Of a DNA stretch of 64,000 nucleotides, positions 23,328-41,455 are shown piece after piece; position 1 is the first letter of the stretch; each line of letters starts with the position of its first letter. The position numbers were made by a program, and so were the translations under genes. The stretch covers positions 124,001 through 188,000 of the forward strand of contig UBPA01000014.1 of the NCBI GenBank assembly GCA_900467185.1. The letters run 5' to 3'. The notes under the pieces are model-generated. The model worked only from the letters and a program-made list of their open reading frames with translations. It did no database searches and was not told the DNA's origin. The DNA comes from Hyphomicrobiales bacterium. GTDB lineage: Bacteria; Pseudomonadota; Alphaproteobacteria; Rhizobiales; Rhizobiaceae.

Positions 23328-23358
23328 CGCGTCGGGGGTCAACAAAAGGGGAAAGACC

Positions 23359-24531: not shown

Positions 24532-24566
24532 TCGCGTCAAGCCGGGCTTCCAGATCTTGAGAGAAG

Positions 24567-24591
24567 GCCGGCGGCAATCCTTGCCGCCGGC
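24567..24591 (+). other. Perfect 11 bp hairpin after binding-protein gene
   Basis: GCCGGCGGCAA pairs perfectly with TTGCCGCCGGC around a TCC loop, 36 bases after the binding-protein stop and 22 bases before the permease start. No T-tract follows, so it is more likely an mRNA-stabilising structure than a terminator. This is the same placement as at 8041-8114, 36341 and 63031. Confidence 0.6.
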
Positions 24592-24612
24592 GCCGTCAAC
24601 CGGATCCTGTCC

Positions 24613-26376: not shown

Positions 26377-27879
26377 CTAGGCAGGAACCGGTGCCGTCTC
26401 CTGCCGCGTCGCGCGATAGAGCCGTCCCTGCCGCTCCGATAGATCGTCCCAGAGAGGCCGGGCTGTCGGATCGGGCGGGATTTCCTCGGCAAGCCGGGTC
26501 ATGGCGTCGGCGGCGGCCTTGAAGCCATCGTACCAGCCGGCGCCGACAGCCGCCGACATGCCGGCGCCGAGCGCCGAGGCCTCGTTGGAGAGGCTGCGGA
26601 TGACGGGCAGGCCGGTGGCGTCGGCCACCATCTTGCGCCAGAGCCGGCTTTCCGCGCCGCCACCGATGACGAAGAGGCGGTCGGCTTTTGCGCCACTTTC
26701 CCGCATTTTGGAGAGGGAGCGCGCGAATTCGAGCGTGATCGCCTCCATCGAGGCGCGGTAGAGATGGCCGATCCCCGTGTCCGGCCCCATGCCGGAAAAG
26801 GTCGCGCGCGCCGTGTCGTCCCAGTGCGGGTCCATGCAGCCGACGAGATAGGAGCAGACGGTCACGCCGTTCGAGCCGACCGGGAGGCGGATCGCCTCGG
26901 ATTCGAGCCGCTCGAACACGCCGGGATCGCCGCGCCCGCCGGCGAACGCATCCAGCAGCCAGTTGAAGAAATAGGCGCCGCCGCGCTGGCAGCTTTCGAG
27001 CAGATATCCCTCGCCGCTCGGCGAGACCAGCGTGCGCCAGTAATTGCTGAGTTCGGGCGTGGGCGACCACAGACCGCCGACGACGGCCGTGCCGAGATTG
27101 AGATAGACCGCGCCCTGCTGGATCGCGTTGACCCCGAGGCCCGCGCAGTTGCCATCGCCGCCGCCGGCAAAGACCGGCGTTCCCGGCCGCAGACCGGTGA
27201 TGGCCGCCGCCGATGCGGTGATCTTGCCGATCGCCGACCCCGGCGCATGGAGGGACGGCAGCTTCTCGACCGGAATTTCGAGGTGATCGAGGATCTCGCG
27301 CGACCAGGTCTTGCGCGCGATATCGAGGATGCCGAACGGATCGGCGCTCGTCCAGCTGGCCGAGGCCGTGCCGGTCAGCTTCAGCGTCAGGAAGTCATGG
27401 ACGCTGAGAATGCGGGCGGCTCGGTCGAGAAGCGCCGGATCGTGCTCGCGAAGATAGCGCAGCCGGTAGACGCAGGGAATGACATCGACCGGCTTGCCGG
27501 AAATCGCATGCAGCCTGCCGGTACCGAGTTCGTCCGCCAGCACCGACACGATTTCGTGGGCGCGCCGGTCGAGCCAGAGGGTCGCGGGCGCCAGCGGTCG
27601 GTCGTCGGCATCGAGCAGAACCATGGTCTCGCGCTGGTTGGAGATGGCGATGCCGTCGATGAGGTCCGAGTCCACCTGCCGCATCAGGGATTGCAGGGCG
27701 GTGCAGGCCGCCGTCCACCAGTCGTCGGCATTCTGTTCCGCGCGCAGGGAATCCGGTGTGCTGATCGCCAGTGGCGCGCGACCTTCCGCATGGCAGCGCC
27801 CGTCGGACGTCCAGGCGATCGCCTTGACGGACTGGGTGGACGAATCGATTCCGATGACGAAACGCTCGCGGTCGTGCAT
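26377..27879 (-). CDS. FGGY-family carbohydrate (polyol/pentulose) kinase
   Basis: ATG 27879 has GGGAGGAG six bases upstream; an upstream in-frame start adds Arg-rich non-family sequence. The 500-residue protein starts FVIGIDSSTQSVKAIAWTSDG, the FGGY ATP-binding loop. It has DGIAISNQRETMVLLD and a C-terminal FVIGGGAESRLWRKMVADATG, which resembles xylulokinase. It would phosphorylate a sugar or polyol with ATP in the cytoplasm. It lies downstream of the SorC-type regulator in the same direction, and opposite the polyol dehydrogenase/importer operon it probably serves. The exact substrate is not deducible. Confidence 0.88.
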   Translation of the reverse strand: MHDRERFVIGIDSSTQSVKAIAWTSDGRCHAEGRAPLAISTPDSLRAEQNADDWWTAACTALQSLMRQVDSDLIDGIAISNQRETMVLLDADDRPLAPATLWLDRRAHEIVSVLADELGTGRLHAISGKPVDVIPCVYRLRYLREHDPALLDRAARILSVHDFLTLKLTGTASASWTSADPFGILDIARKTWSREILDHLEIPVEKLPSLHAPGSAIGKITASAAAITGLRPGTPVFAGGGDGNCAGLGVNAIQQGAVYLNLGTAVVGGLWSPTPELSNYWRTLVSPSGEGYLLESCQRGGAYFFNWLLDAFAGGRGDPGVFERLESEAIRLPVGSNGVTVCSYLVGCMDPHWDDTARATFSGMGPDTGIGHLYRASMEAITLEFARSLSKMRESGAKADRLFVIGGGAESRLWRKMVADATGLPVIRSLSNEASALGAGMSAAVGAGWYDGFKAAADAMTRLAEEIPPDPTARPLWDDLSERQGRLYRATRQETAPVPA

Positions 27880-27973
27880 GCACTGCTCCTCCCTGTGCAG
27901 CGGGATGCCGGGGCTCGACGGGATCGAGCGCACCTGCGCATACCGGAGCTCCTCCACCGGCCTGCGCACATCC

Positions 27974-28002
27974 CTTCTATGAGTCCTCACTTACACTTTC
28001 AA
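27974..28002 (-). promoter_or_regulatory. Candidate sigma-70 promoter for the FGGY kinase
   Basis: Read on the minus strand, TTGAAA (28002-27997) and TAGAAG (27979-27974) are separated by exactly 17 bases, about 95 bases before the kinase start. The -35 box matches consensus at five of six positions and the -10 at four. It lies in the 158-base gap after the regulator gene, so the kinase may have its own promoter as well as readthrough. Confidence 0.38.
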
Positions 28003-28037
28003 TCGTCCCGATCCCGCCATCCGGTCGGCCTCGGCGC

Positions 28038-29063
28038 TCAATCGGGCACGGCCGAAGCGATCAGCGCCTCGGCGGTGGCCATGTCGGTGATGAAATGGGT
28101 AACGTATCCCGCCTCCAGCGTGGCGGTGATCGCCCTAATTTTGGAGGGACCGCCCGCCACGCAGATGCGGCTCGGCACGTTCTTCAGTTCGTCCAGCGTG
28201 ATGCCGACGATGCGCTCTTCATGCGGGCCGCCGACGGCCCCGCCATGAGCGTCGATGAAGCGGCCGATGATCACGGCCGTCGCCCCGCGCGCCACGTAAT
28301 CGTCGATCTCCTCCGGCTCGGCGATGCCGGCCTGGCGCACCGTGCTCTTCGGCCCGATATCGCCAACACCGAAGAGGATCCGGTTGGCCGAGTGCACGAG
28401 GTCCATCTGCTTGCGCAGCACGGGCTCGGCCAGAAGCATGGCCTTCAGCGCCTTGGTCGATAACACGGCCGGCGCCAGCAGGTTGACGCAGCGGGCGTGG
28501 ATGCGATTGGACAGCAGCGACGTACATAGTTCCGGCGAAAAATCGGCCTCGCCGGTGGAGCTTCCCGAGACCTGCACGACCGTGAGATCGCGCACCGGCC
28601 GGGTCAGGGAGATCTGGTCGGCCACGGCCAGCACCGTGCGCCCCCAGGCGACACCGATCGTGTCGCCGTCTTCCACCTGATCGGCCAGAACGCGCGCCCC
28701 GGCATCGCCCAGACGCCGCGTGAGCGCCAGGTCGTCGCCATCCGGAATGACGAAAGCCCCGGCGAGATCGAACGTCTCCATCAGGGCGCGGGCAATGCTC
28801 GTGCGGTTGCCCGCCTTCGGGTGGATGTTGACGGAGACGATGCCGCGCTCGCGCGCCTCCTGCAGATAGTTGACGATCGTCGCGCGGGAGACGTTCAGCC
28901 GCTTGGCGATCTCGCTCTGCGTCATCTGGTCGGCATAGTAGAGCCAGGCCGCCCACATGATGGAATCGTCGAATTCCGTGGGGACAAGCGCCCCCTTTTC
29001 CATATCGATCCGTTCTGACGTCTTTGCCTTGGCCATGGGGTTATCTGACGCCGTTCCTGTCAT
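28038..29063 (-). CDS. SorC/DeoR-type sugar-binding transcriptional regulator
   Basis: The 341-residue protein has an N-terminal helix-turn-helix (ADQMTQSEIAKRLNVSRATI) around residues 45-70. A SorC-type sugar-phosphate-binding domain follows: DTIGVAWGRTVLAVADQI and a GGPSKIRAI stretch near the C-terminus that binds a phosphorylated effector in the family. The start at 29063 has AGAGGAAG eight bases upstream; an alternative at 29036 is possible. It is divergent from the dehydrogenase/importer operon, with repeated TGTCATTTG motifs between, and probably controls both directions in response to a sugar or polyol phosphate. Confidence 0.88.
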   Translation of the reverse strand: MTGTASDNPMAKAKTSERIDMEKGALVPTEFDDSIMWAAWLYYADQMTQSEIAKRLNVSRATIVNYLQEARERGIVSVNIHPKAGNRTSIARALMETFDLAGAFVIPDGDDLALTRRLGDAGARVLADQVEDGDTIGVAWGRTVLAVADQISLTRPVRDLTVVQVSGSSTGEADFSPELCTSLLSNRIHARCVNLLAPAVLSTKALKAMLLAEPVLRKQMDLVHSANRILFGVGDIGPKSTVRQAGIAEPEEIDDYVARGATAVIIGRFIDAHGGAVGGPHEERIVGITLDELKNVPSRICVAGGPSKIRAITATLEAGYVTHFITDMATAEALIASAVPD

Positions 29064-29118
29064 TTGTCAACTTCCTCTGTCTTGTGTATTGACATATGCC
29101 ACAGCCTGTTGTCATTTG
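29058..29118. promoter_or_regulatory. Divergent control region with repeated TGTCATTTG
   Basis: TGTCATTTG occurs at 29058-29066 and again at 29110-29118. Between them TGTCAA (29065-29070) is mirrored by TTGACA (29089-29094). The TTGACA is also a perfect -35 hexamer for the rightward operon, although no good -10 is obvious 16-18 bases on. The first copy overlaps the regulator start codon, which suggests autorepression. The repeats are seen directly; assignment to the SorC regulator is inferred. Confidence 0.45.
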
Positions 29119-29146
29119 AACGAAAGGCGAGGAGGCCCCGACAGTC

Positions 29147-30496
29147 ATGGAACTTGAAGCGACGCGAACGGCGCAGACGACGCGCCCGAACTGGACCGCG
29201 CTGATCGACGATATCGTCGAGGGCAAGTGGACGAATCCCGAGACGGGCAAGCTCGCCCGCGTTCCCTACGAGTCCATCGTCATCGAGGAGAGTCTCGACG
29301 GTCAGGAAGCGGATCTCGTCGCCGGTCTCGGGCTCGGCGAGCGCTTCACGGTGGTGGCCGATACGAACACATGGGATGCGATGGGTGCCCGCGTGGCGGG
29401 AGCGCTGCGGTCCCTCGGGCCGGTGGAGACCGTGGTGCTCGACCATCCTCATGCCGACATGGCGAATGCGGAGGATCTGGGCCGGAAACTGCACGGCGCG
29501 GATGCCGTCATCGCGGTCGGGTCGGGCACCATCAACGATCTCTGCAAATTCGTCACGGCCAAGGCCGGAAAGCGCTATGCCGTGTTCGGCACGGCCGCCT
29601 CGATGAACGGCTACACCTCGACCACGGCATCGATGACGCTCGACAGCGGCCTCAAGGTCTCCCTGCCCTCACAGGGACCGGCCGGCTTCTTCGTCGATCT
29701 CGGCGTCAGCGCCCGCGCGCCGCGGCACCTCTCGGCCTCGGGCTTCGCCGATTGCCTGGTGCGCTCGGTCGCGCAGGTCGACTGGTGGATGTCGCACCGG
29801 CTGCTCTCCACGCTCTATTCCGCCGTCCCCTACATCATCCAGGAGGAGGACGAGGTGGAGCTAAACGCGCGCGCGGCGGGGATCGCCACCGGAGATATCG
29901 CGGCGAACGGCTATCTCCACCGCGTTCTCACGCTCTGCGGCCTCGGCGTCTCGTTCACCGGCATGTCCAACCACGGCTCCATGGGCGAGCACCAGATCTC
30001 CCATTACATCGACTGCTTTGCCGGTGCCGATCATCCCGGCACGCTGCATGGGCAGCAGGTCGGCGTCGCCACCCTGACGATGGCCCGTCTGCAGCGGCAT
30101 TTCCTCGACAGCGAGACGGCACCGTTCATCCACCCGACGCAGATCAACCCCATCGACATGGCGCGGCGCATGGGGCCGGACATTGCCGCGCAGTGTTTCG
30201 AGGAGTTGAAGGGGAAGATCTTCGACGAGCGCGGCGCGGCGCGCATCAACGAGACGTTCGCCGAGATCTGGCCGACCCTGCGGGCCGAGCTCAACGCCTT
30301 CGCGCTGCCGGTCGCGGACATGGAGAAACTGCTGTCGGATGCCGGTGGCCCGATGACGTCTCGGGATCTCGGCCTTCCCGTCGCCCGCTATCGCGAGGCC
30401 GTGATCCACAGCCGCGAAATGCGCAACCGCTACTCCTTCCTCGACGTGGCGGCGGATGCCGGCATTCTCGAGGACTTCGCGGCCGGGGAGGCATGA
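29147..30496 (+). CDS. sn-Glycerol-1-phosphate dehydrogenase homologue (AraM/EgsA family)
   Basis: The 449-residue protein has the NAD-binding AVGSGTINDLCKF and the following FGTAASMNGYTSTTASM. The metal-ligand block SNHGSMGEHQISHYID and GTLHGQQVG match AraM/EgsA-type enzymes of the iron/zinc polyol dehydrogenase superfamily. Family members interconvert dihydroxyacetone phosphate and glycerol-1-phosphate. In this kinase/aldolase/importer context it more likely oxidises a longer polyol phosphate (inference). GAGGAGG lies 11 bases upstream of the ATG. It is the first gene of a long rightward operon. Confidence 0.87.
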   Translation: MELEATRTAQTTRPNWTALIDDIVEGKWTNPETGKLARVPYESIVIEESLDGQEADLVAGLGLGERFTVVADTNTWDAMGARVAGALRSLGPVETVVLDHPHADMANAEDLGRKLHGADAVIAVGSGTINDLCKFVTAKAGKRYAVFGTAASMNGYTSTTASMTLDSGLKVSLPSQGPAGFFVDLGVSARAPRHLSASGFADCLVRSVAQVDWWMSHRLLSTLYSAVPYIIQEEDEVELNARAAGIATGDIAANGYLHRVLTLCGLGVSFTGMSNHGSMGEHQISHYIDCFAGADHPGTLHGQQVGVATLTMARLQRHFLDSETAPFIHPTQINPIDMARRMGPDIAAQCFEELKGKIFDERGAARINETFAEIWPTLRAELNAFALPVADMEKLLSDAGGPMTSRDLGLPVARYREAVIHSREMRNRYSFLDVAADAGILEDFAAGEA

Positions 30497-30500
30497 GCCG

Positions 30501-31313
30501 ATGCGACCGATCCTGGACATGCCCATCGAGGCGGCGGCGCGGATCAAGGTGCTGTTCGCCGATATCGACGACACGCTGACGAACGAGGGCCGGCTGCCCG
30601 CCTGCGCCTATGAGGCGCTGGAGCGGTTGACGGCGGCCGGCATCGCGGTCGCCCCCATCACCGGCCGTCCGGCTGGATGGTGCGACATGATCGCCCGGAT
30701 GTGGCCCGTCGCCGGCGTGGTCGGCGAAAACGGGGCTTTCTATTTCGCCTATGACGAGGCGTTGCGCCGGATGCACCGCGTCTTCGCCGTCGCGGATCAG
30801 CAGCGAGCGAGCGACCGGGAAAGACTGCAGCACATCAAGCAGCGGATCCTGCGCGAGGTGCCGGGGTCGGCCCTGTCCGCCGATCAGCTCTACCGCGAGG
30901 CCGACCTCGCCATCGATTTCTGTGAGGATATTCCCGCCCTTGCGGTGTCCGACGTGGACCGGATCAAGAGCATCTTCGAGGAGGAAGGCGCCGTAGCCAA
31001 GGTGTCTTCGATCCATGTAAATGGCTGGTACGGCGCTTACGACAAGCTGACCATGGCCCGCCGTTTCGCGACCGACATTCTCGGTATCGATATCGACCGG
31101 GAGCAGGAGGCGATCGTCTTCGTCGGCGACAGCCCGAACGACGCGCCGATGTTCGGCTTCTTCCCGCATGCCTGCGGGGTCGCCAACGTGCTGCAGTTCG
31201 AAGGCCGCATGGAGGCCAACCCGACCTATGTGACAGCGGCACGCGGCGGCTACGGCTTCGTGGAAGTGGCCAACCATCTTCTGAACGCCGGCCCCCGGAG
31301 GGATGCGGCATGA
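30501..31313 (+). CDS. HAD-family (IIB-like) sugar-phosphate phosphatase
   Basis: ATG 30501 gives 270 residues, with the HAD motif I DIDDTLT (catalytic Asp pair 21 and 23), motif II ITGRP, and motif IV FVGDSPNDAPMF near residue 210. The large cap insert between motifs II and III fits the IIB group (Cof, sucrose- or mannosyl-3-phosphoglycerate phosphatase-like). It probably dephosphorylates a sugar or polyol phosphate made in this pathway. Its end overlaps the GlpD-type gene by ATGA. Confidence 0.85.
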   Translation: MRPILDMPIEAAARIKVLFADIDDTLTNEGRLPACAYEALERLTAAGIAVAPITGRPAGWCDMIARMWPVAGVVGENGAFYFAYDEALRRMHRVFAVADQQRASDRERLQHIKQRILREVPGSALSADQLYREADLAIDFCEDIPALAVSDVDRIKSIFEEEGAVAKVSSIHVNGWYGAYDKLTMARRFATDILGIDIDREQEAIVFVGDSPNDAPMFGFFPHACGVANVLQFEGRMEANPTYVTAARGGYGFVEVANHLLNAGPRRDAA

Positions 31314-32851
31314 GCGCGCCGCTGTTCGATCTCGTCGTCGTCGGCGGCGGCATCAACGGTGCCGGGATCGCGCGCGATGCGGCCGGCCGGGGGCTGAAGG
31401 TCCTTCTGGTCGAGCGGTCGGACCTCGGCTCGGCGACGTCGTCGGCCTCGACCAAGCTCATTCATGGCGGCCTGCGCTATCTGGAACACTACGAATTCAA
31501 GCTGGTGCGCCATGCGCTGGCCGAACGCGAGCGTCTCTGGGCGATCGCGCCGCACATCATCTGGCCGCTCCGCTTCGTGCTGCCGCACCGCAAGGGGCTG
31601 CGGCCGGCGTGGCTGCTGCGGCTCGGGCTCTTCCTCTACGATCATCTGGGCGGCCGCAAACGTCTGCCGGCAACGGTGACGCGCCGCCTGCGGAGCGATC
31701 CGGTCGGGCGTCCCTTGCGCGACGTCTCCGGCATCGGGTTCGAATATTCGGATTGCTGGGTGCAGGACAATCGTCTCGTCGTGCTGAACGCCCGGGACGC
31801 TGCGGCAAACGGAGCCGATATCCGCGTGCGGACGTCCTGCATCGCAGCGCGGCGGGAGGCCGATCTGTGGCAACTGACGCTTCAGGACGAGGGGACCGGC
31901 TATCGCAGCGAGGTGCGCGCCCGCGCCGTGGTCAATGCCGCCGGCCCCTGGGTCGACAGCTTTCTCTCCGGCGTCGCCGGCATCAACGCCGCCGGCCGGG
32001 CGCGGCTGGTGCAGGGCTCGCACATCGTCGTGCCGAAGCTCTACGACCACGACCGCTGCTACATCTTCCAGAACCCGGACGGCCGCATCATCTTCGCCAT
32101 TCCCTATGAGGACGATTTCACGCTGATCGGCACGACCGACCAGGACTATCGCGGCGACCCGAAAGACGTGAAGGCCACGCAGGCGGAGATCGCCTATCTC
32201 GTCAAGGCGATCTCGTCCTATTTCCAACGCGCGGTGACCGAGGACGATGTGGTCTGGACCTATTCCGGCGTGCGCTCGCTCTATGACGACGGGGCGGCAA
32301 ATGCCCAGGAAACGACGCGCGACTACGTGTTGTCGCTCGACCACGGCCCCGGCCGGGCACCGCTCCTGTCCGTTTTCGGCGGCAAGATCACCACCTATCG
32401 CTGCCTTGCCGAAGACGCGCTGGACAAGCTCGCCGTCCTGTTTCCCGATACGGTGGCCAGGCGCGGCTGGACGGCGACGCGGGCGCTGCCGGGCGGCGAT
32501 TTCCCCGCCGGAACGGCCGGCGACGTGGCGCGCGATCTGCGGCAGACATACGGCTTCCTGTCGGAACGCGAGGCGCAGCGTCTCGTGCGGCATTACGGGC
32601 TGGAGGCGCGCGACATTCTCGGCACGGCACGCCGCCGCGAGGATCTCGGCCGCGCCTTCGGCGGCTCCCTGACGGAACGCGAAGTCGTGTTTCTGATGGA
32701 CCGGGAATATGCGCGGGCGGCGGCCGACATCGTCTGGCGGCGCACGAAATCGGGGCTGCGCATGACGCCGGGCGAAATCGATGCGCTCGACAGTTTCATG
32801 GCGGAAAGGCGCCGGCAGACAGGGGCTCCGAAGGCTGCGGCCAGCGGCTAG
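31310..32851 (+). CDS. FAD-dependent glycerol-3-phosphate dehydrogenase family (GlpD/EryB-like)
   Basis: The 513-residue protein starts with the FAD-binding VVVGGGINGAGIARDAAGRG, then SSASTKLIHGGLRYLEHYEF, the GlpD signature. A GTTDQDY block and the C-terminal DAAO-like domain are also present. GlpD oxidises glycerol-3-phosphate to dihydroxyacetone phosphate at the membrane and passes electrons to quinone. Homologues such as EryB act on other polyol phosphates, and the FGGY kinase and SorC regulator here recall the erythritol locus. The substrate is therefore open. Confidence 0.88.
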   Translation: MSAPLFDLVVVGGGINGAGIARDAAGRGLKVLLVERSDLGSATSSASTKLIHGGLRYLEHYEFKLVRHALAERERLWAIAPHIIWPLRFVLPHRKGLRPAWLLRLGLFLYDHLGGRKRLPATVTRRLRSDPVGRPLRDVSGIGFEYSDCWVQDNRLVVLNARDAAANGADIRVRTSCIAARREADLWQLTLQDEGTGYRSEVRARAVVNAAGPWVDSFLSGVAGINAAGRARLVQGSHIVVPKLYDHDRCYIFQNPDGRIIFAIPYEDDFTLIGTTDQDYRGDPKDVKATQAEIAYLVKAISSYFQRAVTEDDVVWTYSGVRSLYDDGAANAQETTRDYVLSLDHGPGRAPLLSVFGGKITTYRCLAEDALDKLAVLFPDTVARRGWTATRALPGGDFPAGTAGDVARDLRQTYGFLSEREAQRLVRHYGLEARDILGTARRREDLGRAFGGSLTEREVVFLMDREYARAAADIVWRRTKSGLRMTPGEIDALDSFMAERRRQTGAPKAAASG

Positions 32852-32979
32852 CATGAACGGCGATCGGCCCTCGGCCGGTCGAAAGGCAGCGTCGGACACC
32901 GTTGGGAGAGAGCGGTGACGGACACGGGACGAGCCTGCGGCGCAGTTTGCGTCCGGAAATCTGGGAGGAATGAAGCGCA

Positions 32980-33867
32980 ATGTCCATTGCACAGGTGAAA
33001 CGCATCGCGATCTCGGATTCGCCGTGGCCATGGCTGCTGCCGCTCGTCGCACTGCTGGTGGTCTTTACCGTCTATCCGCTGATCTACAACATCTGGCTCA
33101 GCTTCCACGAATTCGTGCCCAAGCAGAGAGTGCTGAAATATGTCGGCATGGCCAACTGGGTGCAGCTGGTCAATGACGGCCGGTTCTGGGGGGCGCTCGG
33201 CGTCACCTTTCTCTATTTCTTCATCGCGCTCACGGTCGAGATCATCCTCGGCATGTCCGTCGCGATGCTGCTGGATGCCGAACTGCCGGGATTTGCAGCG
33301 CTCCGCGCCATCCTGTCGATGACGCTCGTCATCCCGCCCGCCATCGCCGGCATGATGTTCCTGCTGATGGAAGACTCCCAGTTCGGCGTGCTCTCCTATT
33401 TCCTCGGCCAGCTCGGCCTGCTCGACAAATCGACGCCGATCCTCGGCACGTCGTCCCTTGCCCTTCTCGGCGTGCTCGTGGCGGAAATCTGGCAGTGGAC
33501 GCCTTTCATGGTGCTGATCTTCATGGCCGGCCTGCGCTCGCTGCCGGCCGAGCCCTACGAGGCGGCATCCATCGACGGGGCCTCCGCGTTCCAGATGTTC
33601 CGCCGACTGACCTTGCCCATGATGTCTCGGGTCATCGCGGTCGCCGTCCTGCTGCGCGGCATCGATCTGTTCCGGGTGTTCGACTACGTCTTCGTCATGA
33701 CCTCGGGCGGCCCGGGAACCGCGACCTACACCGTCAGCCTCTATGCCTGGCAGCAGACGTTCTCGTTCCTGAAATGGGGCTATGGCGCGACGCTGAGCCT
33801 GACGAGCCTCGTGATCGTCATGGTCATGGCCAACCTCTTCATCCGCGTCGCCAAGGTCAGGTGGTAA
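32980..33867 (+). CDS. ABC sugar importer permease, MalF/UgpA type
   Basis: The 295-residue protein begins MSIAQVKRIAISDSPWPWLL, with six predicted membrane segments and an EAA loop PAEPYEAASIDGASAFQMFR. It belongs to the CUT1 carbohydrate-uptake family. GGGAGGA sits ten bases upstream of the ATG. A one-base gap separates it from the second permease. A 128-base gap with small GC-rich hairpins precedes it. Confidence 0.92.
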   Translation: MSIAQVKRIAISDSPWPWLLPLVALLVVFTVYPLIYNIWLSFHEFVPKQRVLKYVGMANWVQLVNDGRFWGALGVTFLYFFIALTVEIILGMSVAMLLDAELPGFAALRAILSMTLVIPPAIAGMMFLLMEDSQFGVLSYFLGQLGLLDKSTPILGTSSLALLGVLVAEIWQWTPFMVLIFMAGLRSLPAEPYEAASIDGASAFQMFRRLTLPMMSRVIAVAVLLRGIDLFRVFDYVFVMTSGGPGTATYTVSLYAWQQTFSFLKWGYGATLSLTSLVIVMVMANLFIRVAKVRW

Positions 33868-33868
33868 C

Positions 33869-34744
33869 ATGCATCAGAGCAAACTCGCCCGCACCGTTCG
33901 CACCATTGCCGGCTGGCTGGTGGTCGGCGCCTTCTTCTTCCCGATCTACTTCTGGACCTCGGTGGCCTTCCGCGACTCCAAGGACATCTTCAACTGGCCG
34001 CCGATCATCTTTAATTTCCAGCCGACCATGCGCAATTTCGAACAGGTCTTCGGCATTTCCTTCGGCTTCGCCCGGCAGGATGCGGTGGCCCCCGGCGGCG
34101 GCAACTTCTACATGGCGCCGCGGCTGTGGGATTCGATCGTGGTCGCATCGCTGTCGACGGTGCTTGCCATCACGGTGGCGACCTTCGCTTCCTATGCGCT
34201 TTCCCGGATGAATTTTCGCGGCCGCCACCAGTTCGTCAACTGGGTGCTGTCGACGCGCATGATGCCGCCCGTGGCCGTCGCCATTCCGATGTTCTTCATC
34301 TTCAAGCAGTTCAACCTGCTCGACACCTATATCGGCGTGATCCTCATCCACGGGCTGATGAACCTGCCGCTGGCGGTGCTGCTGCTCAAGAGTTTCTTCG
34401 ACGACATCCCCGCCGAGATCGACGAGAGCGCACTGCTCGACGGCGCGTCCCGCTGGACCATCTTCCGGCGCGTCGTCCTGCCGATGGCCAAGGGCGGGAT
34501 CGCGGCCACCGCCGTCCTCTGCTTCATCTTCTCGTGGACGGAATTTCTGTTCGTCCTCACGCTCACCCAGACGGGCCTCAAGACCGTACCCGTCGTGTCG
34601 TCCACCTTCGTGACTTCGATCGGAACCGCCTGGGGCAACATGGCTGCCCTCGGCGCTGCTGCGATCGTGCCTGCCTTCTTCGTCGTCCTTCTGGTCCAGC
34701 GCCATCTGGTGCGGGGCCTGACCATGGGCTCGCTGAAGCAATGA
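33869..34744 (+). CDS. ABC sugar importer permease, MalG/UgpE type
   Basis: The 291-residue protein has the CUT1 MalG layout. The first membrane segment is followed by a long periplasmic loop, then FASYALSRMNFRG. The EAA loop is PAEIDESALLDGASRWTIFR. It starts one base after the previous stop and pairs with that permease. The substrate-binding protein gene follows 82 bases later with its own strong ribosome binding site. Confidence 0.92.
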   Translation: MHQSKLARTVRTIAGWLVVGAFFFPIYFWTSVAFRDSKDIFNWPPIIFNFQPTMRNFEQVFGISFGFARQDAVAPGGGNFYMAPRLWDSIVVASLSTVLAITVATFASYALSRMNFRGRHQFVNWVLSTRMMPPVAVAIPMFFIFKQFNLLDTYIGVILIHGLMNLPLAVLLLKSFFDDIPAEIDESALLDGASRWTIFRRVVLPMAKGGIAATAVLCFIFSWTEFLFVLTLTQTGLKTVPVVSSTFVTSIGTAWGNMAALGAAAIVPAFFVVLLVQRHLVRGLTMGSLKQ

Positions 34745-34826
34745 CTGCGGCGGGCCGGGAGGGCCTGCCGTTCGATCAACGATCTTCCGCCGTCAATCCC
34801 GGCAGCGGAAACTGGAGGAGAGAACC

Positions 34827-36323
34827 GTGAAAGACAGCGATAGAAAATCATACCTCGCATCCGTCACCGACCGCTTCGTGCGGGGCCAGATGGACCGGCG
34901 CGCCTTCCTGCGCGCAACCAGCAAGCTGGGACTGGGGGCCGCGGCGCTCGGAATGGGCATGGGAAGCCGCCCCTTCATGCTCAACAAGGCCATTGCCCAG
35001 GAAGAGCTGCAGCCCTCGGCCGAGGTGATGGCCTGGCTGAAGGACGTCGGCAAGCCCTTTGCCGGCACGACACTGAAATTCGCGACGGAATCCACGCCGC
35101 CGTCGAACGCGATCAACTCGCAGCTGAAGAAGTATTTCGAGGAAGCGACTGGCATCAAGGTCGAGATCGAGGTCCTGCCGCTCGAGCAGGTTCTGCAGAA
35201 GATGACGCTCGACGTCGCGTCCTCGCTCGGCACCTATGACCTCTATTACATCGACCAGAGCTGGGCCGCATCCTTCAGCCAGGACGTCTTCGATCCGCGC
35301 GAGCAGATCAAGGCCAAGGCCGACCTTGCCATGCCGAACTACAATATCGACGATTTCCTGCCGGCGCTGGTCGACGGCATCTCGAAATATCAGGACCGTT
35401 GGGTCGGCGTGCCCTACGACATTCCGATCTTCATCATGATCTATCGGAAGGACATCTACGAGAAGCTCGGCCTCAAGGCGCCGGCGACCTTCGAGGAGCT
35501 GTACACCAACTCGGCCGCCATCACGAAAGAGATGGGCCCGAAAACGTTCGGCTATGCCGGACAGATGAAGTCCGGCCATTATGCGCTGGAATGCGAATGG
35601 ACCTCGATGCTGTGGGGCCATGGCGGGTCGATCTTCAATGCCGACAAGACGTTCACCGGCAATGACGAACGCGGCATTGCCGCGCTCGACTATTATACGA
35701 AACTCAAGGACATCATGCCGCCGGGCGTCAACCAGTGGACATGGGACGGACAGGGCCAGGCTGTCGCTCAAGGGGTCGCGGCATCTATGCTGTCCTGGGG
35801 CGAGTTCTTCCCCTTCTTCGACGATCCGACGCAGACCAAAGTCTCCGGCCTCTGCGAAGCCATCATCCCGCCGCAGCCGATCGCGCTCCGCAAGCCCGAA
35901 GAGTGCGGCTACGGCGAAATTCCCGGCGTCGGCCATCAGGGCGGCTCGTCGCTCGCGGTCTCGCGCTACTCCAAGAACCCGGATGCCGCATGGCTGTTCA
36001 TGCAGTGGGCGACCTGCGCCGACACGCAGGCGCTGGTGACGACGCTGGGCGGCGGCACCGGCCCGACACGGGCAAGCGTCTACGACGATCCGCGCGTCAA
36101 GAGCCATGCGCGCGTGGGCGCCGGCACCACCCGGCATCTGCCGGTCGTGCGCGAGACCATTGCCAAATATATGGGCTCCGAGCCGGACCTGCCGGAATGG
36201 GCGCAGATCTCCTCCGACACGATCCCCGTGGCGCTCGGCAAGTATTTCTCGGGCAGCTACGGCTCGTCCAAGGAAGCGCTCGACGATATCGGCAACGGAA
36301 TCGCGGCCGTCCTGAAGGGCTGA
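34827..36323 (+). CDS. ABC sugar importer substrate-binding protein (CUT1), Tat signal
   Basis: GTG start behind GGAGGAGAGAACC. The 498-residue protein has twin arginines in MDRRAFLRATSKLG (RR at 24-25), then an Ala/Gly-rich hydrophobic core and an AIAQE cleavage site near residue 58, so it is probably exported by Tat. SBP_bac_1-type features include GVPYDIPIFIMIYRKDIYEK and GYAGQMKSGHYALECEW. It is longer than average for CUT1 binding proteins. The ligand is likely the polyol or polyol-glycoside that the surrounding enzymes degrade. The hairpin at 36341-36367 follows its stop. Confidence 0.9.
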   Translation: MKDSDRKSYLASVTDRFVRGQMDRRAFLRATSKLGLGAAALGMGMGSRPFMLNKAIAQEELQPSAEVMAWLKDVGKPFAGTTLKFATESTPPSNAINSQLKKYFEEATGIKVEIEVLPLEQVLQKMTLDVASSLGTYDLYYIDQSWAASFSQDVFDPREQIKAKADLAMPNYNIDDFLPALVDGISKYQDRWVGVPYDIPIFIMIYRKDIYEKLGLKAPATFEELYTNSAAITKEMGPKTFGYAGQMKSGHYALECEWTSMLWGHGGSIFNADKTFTGNDERGIAALDYYTKLKDIMPPGVNQWTWDGQGQAVAQGVAASMLSWGEFFPFFDDPTQTKVSGLCEAIIPPQPIALRKPEECGYGEIPGVGHQGGSSLAVSRYSKNPDAAWLFMQWATCADTQALVTTLGGGTGPTRASVYDDPRVKSHARVGAGTTRHLPVVRETIAKYMGSEPDLPEWAQISSDTIPVALGKYFSGSYGSSKEALDDIGNGIAAVLKG

Positions 36324-36340
36324 GGCTTGCTATCAAGCCT

Positions 36341-36367
36341 GGAGGTCGCGGCGAGACCGCGACCTCC
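36341..36367 (+). other. Perfect 11 bp hairpin after binding-protein gene
   Basis: GGAGGTCGCGG and CCGCGACCTCC form a perfect stem around a CGAGA loop, 18 bases after the binding-protein stop. No T-tract follows. As with the other binding-protein genes here it probably protects the upstream mRNA end; it lies before the SDR gene at 36404. Confidence 0.62.
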
Positions 36368-36403
36368 TCCCGATAGCACGACGCAGGACAAACGGAGGAT
36401 ACG

Positions 36404-37129
36404 ATGGACCACAAACCCCTGATCGCCATTACCGGCGCCAGTTCCGGGATCGGCGAGGCCGTGGCCCGCGCCTTTTCGGACGCCGGCCACCCGCTTCTCC
36501 TGATGGCGCGCCGGCTCGACCGCCTCGAAGCGCTCGACCTCCCCCGCGCCGTGTTGCGCAAGGTGGATGTGCGCGACCGTGCAAGCCTTGTCGCCGCGGT
36601 CCGCGATGCGGAGGCAGACTACGGTCCGGTCGATCTGATGTTCGCCAATGCCGGCATCGCCCGGCTCGGCGATATCGCCACGCAGCCGCCCGAAGAGTGG
36701 GACGAGATGATCGACATCAACACCAAGGGCGTCATGAACAGCGTCCATGCGGTGCTGACAGGCATGGTGGCGCGCCGGCACGGCACGCTGGTGATGATGA
36801 GTTCGATCGCCGGGCGGAAGGTCTATCCCGACCACACCGTCTATTGCGGCACGAAGTTCTTCGTCCACGCGGTGTCGGAAAGTCTGCGCGCCTATCTCGC
36901 GCCCCACAATGTCCGCGTCGTCGTCGTGTCGCCCGGCATCGTCGATACAGAGGTCCTCGACCACGTCAACGATCCCCGGACACTCGAAAACTACAAGTCG
37001 AACAAGGCCGCCATCGGCGGCGGCATCTCCGCCGATATCGTCGCCGGCCTGATCCTCGACGCCTATGCACTGCCGCAACGCGCCATCGTGCAGGAAATCG
37101 TCATCACGCCGACGCAGCAGACCTACTGA
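36404..37129 (+). CDS. Short-chain dehydrogenase/reductase
   Basis: The 241-residue protein has the classical SDR set: nucleotide motif TGASSGIG (residues 10-17), NAG at about 84, a catalytic Ser in MMSSIAG and YCGTK as the YxxxK active site near residue 146. It is a cytoplasmic NAD(P)-dependent oxidoreductase. GGAGG lies directly upstream. Placed between the importer binding protein and ATPase, it probably oxidises the imported polyol or reduces an aldehyde product; the sequence does not tell which. Confidence 0.9.
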   Translation: MDHKPLIAITGASSGIGEAVARAFSDAGHPLLLMARRLDRLEALDLPRAVLRKVDVRDRASLVAAVRDAEADYGPVDLMFANAGIARLGDIATQPPEEWDEMIDINTKGVMNSVHAVLTGMVARRHGTLVMMSSIAGRKVYPDHTVYCGTKFFVHAVSESLRAYLAPHNVRVVVVSPGIVDTEVLDHVNDPRTLENYKSNKAAIGGGISADIVAGLILDAYALPQRAIVQEIVITPTQQTY

Positions 37130-37176
37130 AACGACGCCGTCCACAGACGGCACCCCGATACAATGGAGCACAGTCA

Positions 37177-38241
37177 ATGGCGACCGTCGAATATCAGCGC
37201 ATAGGCAAGTCCTTCGGCGCCTTCACCATCATGCGCGATATCTCCTTCAAGATCGCGGACCAGGATTTCGTCGTTCTGCTCGGCCCGTCGGGCTGCGGCA
37301 AGACCACCCTGCTGCGCATGACGGCGGGGCTGGAAAGCGTCAGCGAGGGCGACCTTCTCATCGACGGAAACCGCGTCAACACGCTGCACCCGCGCGACCG
37401 CAACATCGCCATGGTGTTCCAGAACTACGCGCTCTATCCCACCATGAAGGTCTACGACAATATCGCCTTCAGCCTCGAGGTCGCCAAGGTGCCGCCGGCC
37501 GAGATCAAGCGCCGGGTGGCATGGGCGGCCGAGACGCTGAACCTCACGCCCTATCTCGACCGCTACCCCAAGGAACTCTCCGGCGGGCAGCGCCAGCGCG
37601 TCGCCATGGGGCGGGCGATGGTGCGCGAGGCGGCCGTGTTCCTGTTCGACGAACCGCTCTCCAACCTCGACGCCAAGCTGCGCGCCCATATGCGCACCGA
37701 GATCCGGCAGCTGCACAACCGGCTGAAGACCACCACCGTCTACGTGACGCACGACCAGATCGAAGCCATGACCATGGCCGACAAGATCGTCGTGATGCGG
37801 GCCGGCAAGATCGAGCAGATCGGCTCTCCGGACGAAGTCTACGACCGGCCGGCCAGCAAATACGTCGCCGACTTCATCGGCGCGTCCGCCATCAACTTCC
37901 TCCCTGGAACGGTCGTCGTGTCCGACGGCACGCCTGCCGTCGACACGGCGACCGGACGGGTGGCCCTGGAAACGACGACGACCGCGAAGCCCGGCGAAAA
38001 GGTCGTCATCGGCCTGCGCCCGACCGATGTCGTGGTCGATGCACAAGGCGCGCTCTCGGCGAAATCCGTGCTGGTCGAGCGGCTTGGTCATGATGCCCAG
38101 CTGTTCTGCGACGGTGCCGACGGACGCTTCACGGTGTCGGTGGACAAGACCGCCCGCTTTGCCGAGGGCAGCGAGGTCTGCTTCTCCATCCCGCCATCCA
38201 AAGTTCACGTCTTCAACGCCGAAACGGAAGCGCGCCTCTAG
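37177..38241 (+). CDS. ABC sugar importer ATPase, UgpC/MalK type
   Basis: The chosen ATG at 37177 gives 354 residues starting MATVEYQRIGKSFGAFTIM. Walker A GPSGCGKTT, Q-loop FQNYALYPTM, signature LSGGQRQRVAMGRAM, Walker B FLFDEPLSNLD and H-loop VTHDQIEA are all present. The last 110 residues form the MalK-type TOBE/regulatory domain. It completes the CUT1 importer with the permeases at 32980 and 33869; the unusual order places the SDR gene between binding protein and ATPase. Confidence 0.92.
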   Translation: MATVEYQRIGKSFGAFTIMRDISFKIADQDFVVLLGPSGCGKTTLLRMTAGLESVSEGDLLIDGNRVNTLHPRDRNIAMVFQNYALYPTMKVYDNIAFSLEVAKVPPAEIKRRVAWAAETLNLTPYLDRYPKELSGGQRQRVAMGRAMVREAAVFLFDEPLSNLDAKLRAHMRTEIRQLHNRLKTTTVYVTHDQIEAMTMADKIVVMRAGKIEQIGSPDEVYDRPASKYVADFIGASAINFLPGTVVVSDGTPAVDTATGRVALETTTTAKPGEKVVIGLRPTDVVVDAQGALSAKSVLVERLGHDAQLFCDGADGRFTVSVDKTARFAEGSEVCFSIPPSKVHVFNAETEARL

Positions 38242-38319
38242 GCCGCGCGATCCAGTCTCCTCTTCCCTCTACCGACTGCCGGCCTCCCCGAACGCGCCGG
38301 CACAGAAAGGACCGTCACC

Positions 38320-40368
38320 ATGAAATCCCGCTGGTCGGATACCGAATTCACATCCGTCGTCGATGCCTATGTCGCAAAGGGCATCAACCGCGACCTCGCC
38401 ATCCGCACCTATACGACGCGTCTTCTTGGGCAGGACCCGGAACTGGTGCTGCATGGCGGTGGAAACACCTCGGTCAAGACGGTGTTCACGGAGATGGACG
38501 GAACGCAAGTCGATGTGCTCTGCGTCAAGGGCAGCGGCTGGGACATGGGCACGATCGAGCCTCAGGGCCTGCCCGCTGTGCGGCTGGAGCCGCTCAAAGC
38601 CATGGTCGCGTTCGACACCCTGTCGGACGACGACATGGTCATGCTGCAGCGCCGCCTGCTGCTCGATCCCTCGGCCCCCAACCCTTCGGTCGAGGCGATC
38701 CTGCACGGTCTCCTGCCGTTCAAGCATATCGACCATACCCATGCCAACGCCATCGTCTCCCTGACCAACCAGCCGCATGGTGAGGATCTGGTGCGGGAGC
38801 TGTTTCCCGATGCGATCATCGTCCCCTATGTCATGCCCGGCTTCGATCTGGCCAAAGCCTGCGATGCCGCCTTCAAGGCCAATCCCGGCGGCGACGGCAT
38901 GATCCTGCTCAAGCACGGCATCTTCACCTGGTCGGAAGATCCGCGCACGAGCTACGAGGACATGATCGCCAATATCGATGCTGCCGAAAAGCGCATCGCC
39001 AAGGGGAACCCGAGGCCGTTCCGGGGCGTGACGCTGCCGCAAAAGATCGCCACCGCGGCCGAGATCGCGCCCATCCTGCGCGGCGCGATCGCACTTCCCA
39101 CGGATGTGGAGGGTGCGCCGCGCCGGTTCGTGCTCGAACATCGCGCAAGCGACAAGATCCTCGATTTCTGCAATGCCGAGACCGCGTCCTCGCTGGTCAG
39201 GCGCGGAAATGCGACGCCCGAGCACGTCATCCACATCAAGCGCTTCGGCGTCGCGCTGCCGGCACCGGAGGCGGGAAAGCTGGAGGCGTGGGCTGAGACC
39301 GTGGCGCAGGCGGTCGAAGCCTATCAGGCAGAGTACAAAGCCTATTTCGAGCGCAACAACGCCCACGTCGGCGGCGGCAAGCGCATGCTCGACCCGATGC
39401 CGCGCGTGTTTTACGTCGCAGGCGTCGGCCTCTTTGCCGCCGGCGCCGCCCGCAAGAACGCGCTGGTGGGCGCCGATGTCGCCGAGGCGACCATCGCCGT
39501 CATTACGAATGCCGAGGGTATCGACGCATTCGAGGCGCTCTCGGAGGCCGACCTCTTCGATATCGAATACTGGTCGCTGGAGCAGGTGAAACTCGCCAAA
39601 TCGGTCGAAAAGCCGCTGACCCGGCAGGTCGCCATCGTCACCGGCGGCGCGAGCGGCCTTGGCCTCGCCGTGGCCGAAGCGCTCAAGGCGGAGGGTGCGG
39701 AGATTGCGCTGTTCGACATTTCGCCGGACGGCGTGGCACGGGAAGCCAAGCGCATCGGCGCGTTTCCGGTCGTCTGCGACGTCACCGATCCGCAAGGGGT
39801 GGATGCGGCGGTCGCCTCCGTCGCGGAGCATTTCGGCGGGGTCGATATCCTGATTTCCAATGCCGGCGCCGCCTTCCAGGGCAGCCTTCTCACCGTGCCA
39901 GAGGACACGTTCCGCAAGGCCTTCGACCTCAATTTCTGGGGACATCACTATATGGCGCGGGCCGTGGTGCGGGTGATGGAACAGCAGAAGACCGGCGGTG
40001 CGCTCGTCTTCAACGTCTCCAAGCAGGCCGTCAACCCCGGCGCGGATTTCGGCCCCTACGGCACGTCGAAAGCGGCGCTGATGGCGCTGATGCGGCAATA
40101 TGCGGTGGAGCACGGCGCGTCCGGCATCACCTCCAATGCGGTCAATGCGGACCGAATCCGCACCGGGCTGATGACCGACGAGATGGTGGCAGCCCGCAGC
40201 AAGGCGCGTGGCGTCACGCCCGAGGCCTATCTCTCGGCCAATCTCGTGCGCCGCGAGGTCACCGCCGCCGATGTCGCCGCCGCCTTCGTGCACCTTGCCA
40301 AGGCGCGAACATCGAGCGGCGCCGTCATCACGGTCGACGGCGGCAACGTCGCCGCCATGATGCGCTGA
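38320..40368 (+). CDS. Bifunctional class II aldolase / short-chain dehydrogenase fusion (RhaD-like)
   Basis: The 682-residue protein joins two domains. Residues 1 to about 420 are a class II aldolase/adducin-type domain with metal-ligand blocks HIDHTHANAIVS and KHGIFTWSED. Residues about 430-682 are an SDR with TGGASGLG, a catalytic Ser in FNVSKQ and active site YGTSK. The same fusion is known in rhizobial rhamnose catabolism, where the aldolase splits rhamnulose-1-phosphate and the dehydrogenase oxidises the aldehyde. Here it would cleave a ketose phosphate produced by the locus. AAAGGA lies eight bases before the ATG. Confidence 0.9.
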   Translation: MKSRWSDTEFTSVVDAYVAKGINRDLAIRTYTTRLLGQDPELVLHGGGNTSVKTVFTEMDGTQVDVLCVKGSGWDMGTIEPQGLPAVRLEPLKAMVAFDTLSDDDMVMLQRRLLLDPSAPNPSVEAILHGLLPFKHIDHTHANAIVSLTNQPHGEDLVRELFPDAIIVPYVMPGFDLAKACDAAFKANPGGDGMILLKHGIFTWSEDPRTSYEDMIANIDAAEKRIAKGNPRPFRGVTLPQKIATAAEIAPILRGAIALPTDVEGAPRRFVLEHRASDKILDFCNAETASSLVRRGNATPEHVIHIKRFGVALPAPEAGKLEAWAETVAQAVEAYQAEYKAYFERNNAHVGGGKRMLDPMPRVFYVAGVGLFAAGAARKNALVGADVAEATIAVITNAEGIDAFEALSEADLFDIEYWSLEQVKLAKSVEKPLTRQVAIVTGGASGLGLAVAEALKAEGAEIALFDISPDGVAREAKRIGAFPVVCDVTDPQGVDAAVASVAEHFGGVDILISNAGAAFQGSLLTVPEDTFRKAFDLNFWGHHYMARAVVRVMEQQKTGGALVFNVSKQAVNPGADFGPYGTSKAALMALMRQYAVEHGASGITSNAVNADRIRTGLMTDEMVAARSKARGVTPEAYLSANLVRREVTAADVAAAFVHLAKARTSSGAVITVDGGNVAAMMR

Positions 40369-40399
40369 CGCAGCCGACCCGTCGCAGGAGGAGAGGTCC

Positions 40400-41455
40400 A
40401 TGGCCAATATTCTGATTCTGGGGGCCGGCGTCATGGCAACGGCGCTGGCCGTGCCCGCCAGCGACAACGGCCACGCGGTCGTTCTGGCGGGCACGCCGCT
40501 CGATGACGCCGTCGTCGCACGCATGCAGGCATCGGGCGGCACGCATCCCAAGCTGGATGCTTCCCTGCCCGGCACCGTGCGCGTCATCGCGGATGCGGAG
40601 GTGACGGCGCAGGACACGGACCGGGCCGACCTGATCGTCGTCGGCGTCAGCAGCCCAGGCATCGCCTGGGCGGTCGACAGGCTGAACGGGCTGCTGCGCC
40701 ACGAGGCGACGGTGGCCTTCGTGACCAAGGGGCTCGACCGTAAGGATGGCGCCGTTGTGACCTTCGCCGAAACCGTGCCGGAGCGCATAAGCCGCCTCGG
40801 CACCTTCATCGGCATCGGCGGCCCCTGCATCGCGCGCGAGCTTGCCCTTCGCCTTCCCACGGCGAGCGTCTATGCCGCGCGGGACAAAGCCGATGCTGAA
40901 CGCGCGGCAGCCCTCTTCCGCACGCCCTATTACCGTCTCGCCGCCAGCGACGACCTGACCGGCGTGGAGGCCTGCGCCGCGCTGAAGAATTTCTTCGCCA
41001 TCGGCGTCAGCGCCATGCAGACCCGCTATCCCGACGCACTTCGCGCCGACGGGCAGTCCAAGAACCCGACCGCGGCCGTCTTCACCCAGGCCGTCCACGA
41101 GATGGCAACGCTATGCGAGAGGATCGGCGGAGCCCGCTCCACCGCCTTCGACCTTGCCGGCCTCGGCGATCTGCACGTCACCGTTGGCGGCGGCCGCAAC
41201 AGCCGGCTTGGCCATAGCCTCGGCCGAGACCGGACAGTCGAAGAAGCCATGGCGCAGGACCTCGCCAACGAGACGGTAGAAGGCATCGATACCGCCCGCG
41301 TCGTCGCGTCCTTGCTGGAGGCCATCGGGCTTCAGGCGAATGGCCGAGACGCCGTCAAATTCCCTCTGGCGCAGGCGATCATCGACGCCGTCCTCGGGAA
41401 CGCCCTGTTCGATTTCGACTTCGAAGATCTTCCCACGCCGGCGAATGCGGGCTGA
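40400..41455 (+). CDS. NAD(P)-dependent glycerol-3-phosphate dehydrogenase family (GpsA-like)
   Basis: The 351-residue protein starts with the nucleotide-binding ILILGAGVMATALA. It has the GpsA active-site run GVEACAALKNFFAIGVSAM, with the catalytic lysine, and GLGDLHVTVGGGRNSRLG. It has diverged from housekeeping GpsA (for example ACAALKNFF in place of the usual LAGALKNVI). A paralogue dedicated to this polyol pathway is therefore more likely than the phospholipid enzyme. GGAGGAGAGG precedes the start. It is the last gene of the rightward operon. Confidence 0.85.
   Translation: MANILILGAGVMATALAVPASDNGHAVVLAGTPLDDAVVARMQASGGTHPKLDASLPGTVRVIADAEVTAQDTDRADLIVVGVSSPGIAWAVDRLNGLLRHEATVAFVTKGLDRKDGAVVTFAETVPERISRLGTFIGIGGPCIARELALRLPTASVYAARDKADAERAAALFRTPYYRLAASDDLTGVEACAALKNFFAIGVSAMQTRYPDALRADGQSKNPTAAVFTQAVHEMATLCERIGGARSTAFDLAGLGDLHVTVGGGRNSRLGHSLGRDRTVEEAMAQDLANETVEGIDTARVVASLLEAIGLQANGRDAVKFPLAQAIIDAVLGNALFDFDFEDLPTPANAG

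Follow-up and report, generated by a model that had tools for sequence, protein, structure and literature searches.

The 64,000-nucleotide stretch analyzed here (the window; C35:124001-188000 of a 5.04 Mb Hyphomicrobiales bacterium genome) carries a locus of 12 intact open reading frames (ORFs) at 26377-41455 that combines an FGGY-family kinase, a SorC-family regulator, a CUT1 importer, and three unrelated dehydrogenases of the AraM, GlpD, and GpsA types. We propose, with about even confidence, that this is a SorC-controlled operon that degrades a sugar alcohol longer than glycerol by a 'phosphorylate first' route. The gene set named in the original prediction, which had been made from the DNA letters alone, is fully present: the kinase, the regulator, the AraM-, GlpD-, and GpsA-type dehydrogenases, a HAD phosphatase, a stand-alone short-chain dehydrogenase (SDR), an aldolase-SDR fusion, and the importer were all found as intact ORFs. 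The 10 of the 12 proteins that we scanned have the expected Pfam or NCBIfam domains; the two permeases were identified by homology. In its appearance, the locus supports the central claim of that prediction, a polyol-phosphate locus that brings together glycerol-phosphate dehydrogenases of three unrelated families.

The kinase and SorC genes diverge from ten co-directional genes, in the order AraM, HAD, GlpD, two permeases, solute-binding protein (SBP), SDR, ATPase, aldolase-SDR, and GpsA. The HAD and GlpD genes overlap by 4 bases, and the remaining gaps are 1-128 bases, the widest lying between GlpD and permease 1. We found no description of this operon in searches limited to open-access papers.

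The kinase and AraM anchor a conserved locus

A scan of named genomes found 255 AraM loci, the best 80 of which were used; the neighbor counts below refer to the 58 of these, drawn from the named-genome set alone, in which AraM is flanked by at least 8 kb on either side. The kinase is present in 58/58 loci, the SBP and the ATPase in 57 each, SorC in 56, and the SBP together with both permeases in 55. The HAD and the stand-alone SDR are each found in 52. Either form of class II aldolase is found in 40 (the aldolase-SDR fusion in 23, a stand-alone class II aldolase in 19). GlpD and GpsA each appear in 15, a figure that is too low for GpsA because this gene is often outside the 10 kb flank. The constant presence of both kinase and AraM suggests a path from polyol through polyol-phosphate to ketose-phosphate, into which a class II aldolase then fits.

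When host genomes were searched for the GpsA-like gene itself, 24 of 46 were positive (49 of the best 80 loci were attempted; 3 genomes were missing). Rhizobiaceae-clade loci account for 21 of these 24 hosts, with GpsA approximately 7.5-11.3 kb downstream of AraM, and the rest are L155, L158, and L159 (L, G, and C numbers are our handles for loci, genomes, and contigs). AraM, GlpD, and GpsA occur together in 14 named loci (L083-L085, L087, L093, L094, L096-L100, L102, L112, and L120), a count that leaves out L092, where GpsA is incomplete. The order kinase-SorC-AraM-HAD-(GlpD)-importer-SDR-ATPase-aldolase-GpsA recurs in named genomes and plasmids; plasmids of Agrobacterium salinitolerans (L165) and Rhizobium leguminosarum (L166) carry the same operon, with no ATPase listed for L166 in an incomplete PLSDB table. 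The set is thus conserved among bacteria of soils and plants, and its recurrence across relatives led us to reject a chance juxtaposition of the genes.

Linkage is also evident in two samples of 297 genomes each. At the family level, AraM matches at E<=1e-60 in 30 genomes, and the GpsA-like gene (E<=1e-45) in 17, all of them among the 30; 16 of the 17 pairs share a contig within 12 kb, and the 17th GpsA sits at a contig end. In several of these genomes (e.g., G380 and G444) the GpsA-like gene directly follows AraM. AraM was not found in at least one family-sample genome of the same genus (G386). At the order level, AraM matches at E<=0.001 in 32 genomes, some of them weakly, and the GpsA-like gene, at the same threshold as before, in 12, with 10 copies adjoining AraM.

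Some relatives stand out individually. Apparent decay is seen in L092 and R. etli p42a (L164), where importer genes are missing or genes are partial, and in the host of L094, whose GpsA copy (G594:C5:177425-178441) has one internal stop. AraM relatives with locus neighbors also occur in L148, L153, L137, and L139, labeled Crocosphaera, Thiothrix, and Deltaproteobacteria; these reflect either transfer or mislabeled or contaminated contigs of metagenome-assembled genomes. L068, from a very small genome (G290, about 1.6 Mb, listed contamination 8%), has AraM, kinase, SDR, SBP, ATPase, and aldolase-SDR in a single run.

The locus kinase retains part of the glycerol kinase signature

Specificity in the FGGY family tracks five positions; in GlpK, Arg83, Glu84, Tyr135, and Asp245 bind the glycerol hydroxyls and Phe270 packs against the glycerol carbons (PMC3245297). 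All 90 locus kinases (>38% identity) carry R-E-x-D-x at these positions, and the window kinase reads REIDV; the 90 kinases, like the 101 AraMs analyzed below, include duplicates, given that two locus sets overlap on apparently the same contigs (e.g., L053/L150, L054/L151, and L056/L159). The equivalents of Arg83, Glu84, and Asp245 are kept. Tyr135 is replaced by Ile, Thr, Leu, Val, or Cys and Phe270 by Val, Ile, Leu, or Ala, such that the full GlpK signature is lost in 90/90 and in the window. For comparison, two glycerol kinases read REYDF, an EryA candidate GDCDV, and two xylulokinases MYGDV. From these residues we infer that the locus kinase may hold one end of its substrate in a glycerol-like grip and leave space for a longer chain. 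In L155 and L158, which have kinase, AraM, and GpsA, we detected no aldolase in the flank and no SDR closely related to that of the window; the kinase there would therefore phosphorylate the imported compound itself.

AraM has an altered loop beside an intact metal site

Window AraM belongs to the same sequence family as the solved enzymes 9h4x and 4rgq, both named sn-glycerol-1-phosphate (G1P) dehydrogenases, and 3ce9, deposited as a glycerol dehydrogenase, and shares with them the metal-site regions and the C-terminal tail. D202, H282, H286, and H301 are invariant among 16 sequences and align with the solved enzymes; which of the four bind metal is our assumption, and the Asp-His-His ligand set of canonical G1P dehydrogenases is present. 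The difference lies in the loop before the metal-site His: the PASG-x-EH of 9h4x, 3ce9, and 4rgq becomes GSM-x-EH in 99 of 101 close relatives, the window included, and PASQ in the other 2. Distant AraMs have PASG-x-DH in 5/5. Residue 154 is Asn in 95/101 (Asp in 5, Thr in 1), and Asp in 5/5 distant AraMs. Together, the changed loop and Asn 154 make a plain G1P dehydrogenase less likely, and these substitutions fit an altered substrate. The canonical model NF002022 gives 124.6 bits (cut-off 413). Thus, of the original assignment of AraM as a G1P dehydrogenase, the family membership stands; the G1P label is nominal.

GlpD and GpsA are additional copies in this genome

The locus GlpDs group separately from glycerol GlpD and from the EryB candidate in a tree whose branch supports were not printed. 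Model NF008899 fails to separate GlpD from EryB, because the window GlpD (755 bits) and the EryB candidate (747.6 bits) both score above its cut-off of 360. The GpsA-like protein matches PF07479 (91 bits, cut-off 25) and stays below the GpsA subfamily model NF000942 (165 bits, cut-off 257).

The original prediction was to fall if the locus held the sole gpsA or glpD of the genome; further copies of both are present, and this refutation fails. There are two GpsA-family genes, the non-locus copy scoring higher (137.7 vs 92.9 bits). GlpD-type genes number four, three full and one distant. One GlpD lies in a glycerol-type operon (L071) with the glycerol kinase signature REYDF, and another in an FGGY-GlpD-AP_endonuc_2-SorC operon (L072) that fits eryABCD. 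For GpsA and GlpD, a role as sole housekeeping copies was therefore rejected. AraM has a single match in this genome.

Aldolases and binding protein

FucA-type enzymes split ketose-1-phosphates into dihydroxyacetone phosphate (DHAP) and an aldehyde; the E. coli enzyme also accepts D-ribulose-1-phosphate. In relatives of the locus, a stand-alone FucA-like aldolase replaces the fusion or sits beside it. All 34 stand-alone aldolases matched E. coli FucA (33-51% identity, median 47%) and keep the three zinc-type His residues. Among 30 fusions, the first two His are kept in 30/30 and the third in 24, with gaps in 6. For the fusions the alignment is off at FucA position 73; inspection by eye shows PSVE in the window and PSSE in FucA. 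The FucK-FucA route of E. coli for L-fucose and D-arabinose has the same cleavage of a ketose-1-phosphate to DHAP and aldehyde; it is entered through an isomerase and a ketose kinase, whereas the route proposed here would be entered through a polyol-phosphate.

The solved structure closest to the SBP is 5iai, which we take to be a ribitol complex. Because this ligand is presumed and the relation is distant (E 2.4e-34), we did not accept ribitol as the ligand.

The locus differs from known erythritol and rhamnose systems

A survey of Rhizobiales erythritol, adonitol, and L-arabitol loci (eryABCD and lalA-rbtABC; PMC3599248) covers systems that share with our locus a polyol-acting FGGY kinase, a GlpD-type dehydrogenase, a sugar-binding regulator, an ABC importer, and rhizobial hosts. 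It places eryD after eryC in R. leguminosarum and Brucella, and its main text has no mention of AraM or glycerol-1-phosphate. The L-rhamnose RhaD fusion (TIGR02632) has the same domain order as the window fusion, class II aldolase followed by SDR. The shared FGGY, GlpD, and SorC families and the aldolase-SDR could mean that this is a known erythritol or rhamnose locus under a different name, a reading that we disfavor and consider very improbable. The genome has the ery-like operon L072 besides; the window kinase reads REIDV, not the GDCDV of the EryA candidate of the same genome; and AP_endonuc_2 (the EryC-type TIM barrel), present in L072, was found in none of the 10 scanned locus proteins. 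The fusion scores 460.9 against the RhaD model (cut-off 567.75), and its best model is the generic 'bifunctional aldolase/short-chain dehydrogenase' NF006192, which it passes. With the locus GlpDs in a separate clade as well, the suggestion that erythritol and rhamnose modules are combined here is not supported.

Operator-like repeats between SorC and AraM

The motif TGTCATTTGTCA has just two matches at <=2 mismatches in the 64 kb window, both in the SorC-AraM gap. Two or more such matches arose in 43 of 100 shuffles (mean 1.49), so the evidence for an operator lies in position and conservation and not in the number of matches. A TGTCATTTGTCA-like sequence is present in 16 of 19 aligned intergenic rows; the other 3 (L086, L093, and L094) were extracted too short.

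Three layouts among relatives

The AraM tree and gene content define three layouts. In the first, the window type, the SDR is present and the aldolase usually so. Loci of the second layout combine importer, kinase, AraM, ATPase, GpsA, and SorC and lack an SDR closely related to that of the window; a FucA-like aldolase, a DRL-domain oxidoreductase, and an RpiB-type isomerase are frequent neighbors. In L056 (1865-3963), L061, L159, and their relatives, which are GpsA-type and SDR-less, the FucA-like aldolase adjoins the DRL-domain oxidoreductase (DRL, DXR-like of Brucella), and the RpiB-type isomerase lies farther along. This neighborhood could indicate a polyol that is branched or has four carbons.

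The third layout is SorC-AraM-HAD-GlpD. L064 and L167 also have a xylulokinase above its model cut-off of 380 (512 and 500 bits), and L167, a Shinella plasmid, has a different importer by annotation. L064, L062, and L167 represent a second and probably different way of using the AraM-HAD-GlpD trio. Distant AraMs at about 30% identity (L075, L078, and L079) likewise sit with an FGGY kinase, SorC, an importer, and an SDR.

A proposed phosphorylate-first pathway

In the pathway that we propose, the CUT1 importer would take up a polyol, the FGGY kinase would add phosphate at its end carbon, and a glycerol-phosphate-type dehydrogenase would oxidize the carbon adjacent to the phosphomethyl group to yield a ketose-1-phosphate. 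AraM would be the core dehydrogenase; GlpD and GpsA would be accessory enzymes for the opposite C2 configuration. The class II aldolase, SDR-fused in the window and stand-alone and FucA-like in relatives, would cleave the ketose-1-phosphate into DHAP and an aldehyde, which the fused SDR would oxidize. The HAD protein may serve as a clean-up phosphatase for polyol- or sugar-phosphates, and the stand-alone SDR as a second polyol or aldehyde dehydrogenase. The gene content, its conservation and linkage, the residue changes in kinase and AraM, and the further GpsA and GlpD copies are observations; from them we infer the order of reactions, the division by C2 stereochemistry, the HAD and SDR roles, and the substrate. 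AraM-type enzymes act on the opposite enantiomer of glycerol phosphate to GlpD- and GpsA-type enzymes. With all three families, the locus could thus convert epimeric polyol-phosphates to a single ketose-1-phosphate. Our specific guess, made with low confidence, is that one such pair, D-arabitol and ribitol, converges on D-ribulose-1-phosphate; L-fucitol oxidized to L-fuculose-1-phosphate, a single case, would fit the same logic.

Several observations weigh against this scheme. There is no class II aldolase in the flank of 18 of the 58 loci, including 8 Mesorhizobium loci, L110, L112, and L120, and L112 and L120 have all three dehydrogenases yet no flank aldolase; the window fusion itself gave no match to FucA and a weak one to RhaD (E 0.005). 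The HAD and the stand-alone SDR occur more consistently than the aldolase, and the scheme does not force their roles. Beyond the 80 loci, no R-E-type kinase was found in the stretches seen around the GSM-type AraMs of L062, L064, L065, L080, and L081 (the signatures are MYGDV for the L064 xylulokinase, LDTDV for L080, and LDSDV for L081). In the order sample, 2 of the 12 GpsA-like genes lack an adjoining AraM: G228 has no AraM match, its contig (L069, the end of C54) stopping just past the neighboring ATPase gene, and in G024 (L070) the one AraM is distant and on a separate contig. Finally, of 11 positions compared with E. coli GlpD, 10 agree in the window GlpD and 10 in the EryB candidate, such that this check does not separate the two; in the GpsA-like protein, K110, K196, N197, D257, T261, R266, and N267, whose active-site roles are presumed, are invariant among 18 aligned sequences, leaving an intact active site of this type. 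We rejected both the aldolase as an obligatory member of the locus and a strict tie of GpsA to AraM everywhere.

The regularity of HAD and SDR (52/58 each), together with the 18 aldolase-less loci, favors a route that starts with a dehydrogenase: the stand-alone SDR would make a ketose, the FGGY kinase would phosphorylate it, and an aldolase or the pentose phosphate pathway would complete the breakdown, with AraM, HAD, GlpD, and GpsA repairing wrongly made polyol-phosphates. The Mesorhizobium loci, with SDR, kinase, AraM, and HAD and no flank aldolase, are consistent with this, as is the AraM-HAD-GlpD trio adjoining a true xylulokinase model match in L064 and L167. However, the locus kinase retains the Arg-Glu of glycerol kinase where these xylulokinases have Met-Tyr, and L155, L158, and L159 have kinase, AraM, and GpsA without a close relative of the window SDR. 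On balance we regard the repair route as somewhat unlikely.

The residues of GlpD and GpsA indicate that both could be ordinary enzymes of glycerol-3-phosphate (G3P) and DHAP. Given that known members of all three dehydrogenase families use glycerol phosphates, the locus might instead route G1P and G3P, released from a glycerol-containing compound, to DHAP. This we consider improbable: glycosidase, phosphodiesterase, and lipase domains are absent from the 10 scanned locus proteins, neither bulky residue of the glycerol pocket is retained in the kinase, the AraM loop is unlike that of the solved G1P dehydrogenases, and the class II aldolase would be left without a job. An unusual glycerol-phosphate enantiomer, as raised in the original prediction, may still be a substrate.

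Features of the locus and its surroundings

The most likely kinase start is 27879 (ATG, 500 aa) and not 27990, and the starts of HAD and the ATPase were corrected to 30501 and 37177. The listed SorC start, 29063, falls within operator-like sequence. Upstream of the locus, a hydantoinase/oxoprolinase gene is followed by ABC importer genes (20178-26267, + strand), apparently a separate operon; directly 3' of the locus lies a gene for a small RTX calcium-binding repeat protein (PF00353; 41992-42576, - strand).

Table 1 Features of the putative polyol-phosphate locus (window coordinates).
Feature	Position	Strand	Evidence
FGGY polyol kinase (K)	26377..27879	-	PF00370/PF02782; signature R-E-I-D-V; XylB model 290.5, below cut-off 380.25
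SorC-family regulator (R)	28038..29063	-	PF04198 Sugar-bind, E 2.3e-56; true start may be inside ORF
Operator-like repeats TGTCATTTGTCA	29058-29069 (+, exact), 29090-29101 (-, 2 mismatches)		Between SorC and AraM
AraM-type (Fe-ADH_2) dehydrogenase (M), GSM-loop subfamily	29147..30496	+	PF13685
HAD-IIB phosphatase (H)	30501..31313	+	TIGR01484 54.9 bits, cut-off 41.8
GlpD-type flavoprotein (D)	31310..32851	+	NF008899 755 bits, cut-off 360
CUT1 importer permease 1	32980..33867	+	ORF; homologue with permease 2 and SBP in 55/58 loci
CUT1 importer permease 2	33869..34744	+	ORF; homologue with permease 1 and SBP in 55/58 loci
Solute-binding protein (B)	34827..36323	+	PF01547; closest solved structure 5iai, E 2.4e-34
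Stand-alone SDR (S)	36404..37129	+	PF00106
Importer ATPase (T)	37177..38241	+	NF008653 460.2 bits, cut-off 432
Class II aldolase-SDR fusion (A)	38320..40368	+	NF006192 1044.7 bits, cut-off 639
GpsA-like NAD(P) dehydrogenase (G)	40400..41455	+	PF07479/PF01210

Implications

The contig that carries the locus is probably a repABC replicon, as it also has a RepC-family gene (at 338886). Plasmid records with an AraM match number 45, of which 20 are classed as conjugative and 24 as non-mobilizable; given the 20 conjugative records, some rhizosphere bacteria may be able to pass the trait on.

More broadly, the phosphorylate-first pathway could be one instance of a general alphaproteobacterial 'polyol-1-phosphate' strategy, in which an FGGY kinase of new specificity (R-E-x-D-x) and an AraM of a new, GSM-loop subfamily together yield a ketose-1-phosphate and three unrelated dehydrogenases let either C2 configuration feed one aldolase. 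We put this forward tentatively, at less than even confidence. If the phosphorylate-first pathway is right, rhizobial genes labeled 'sn-glycerol-1-phosphate dehydrogenase' would serve the catabolism of sugar alcohols and not of G1P, and the three-dehydrogenase operon would be a test case for the recruitment of unrelated enzymes to opposite stereochemistry.

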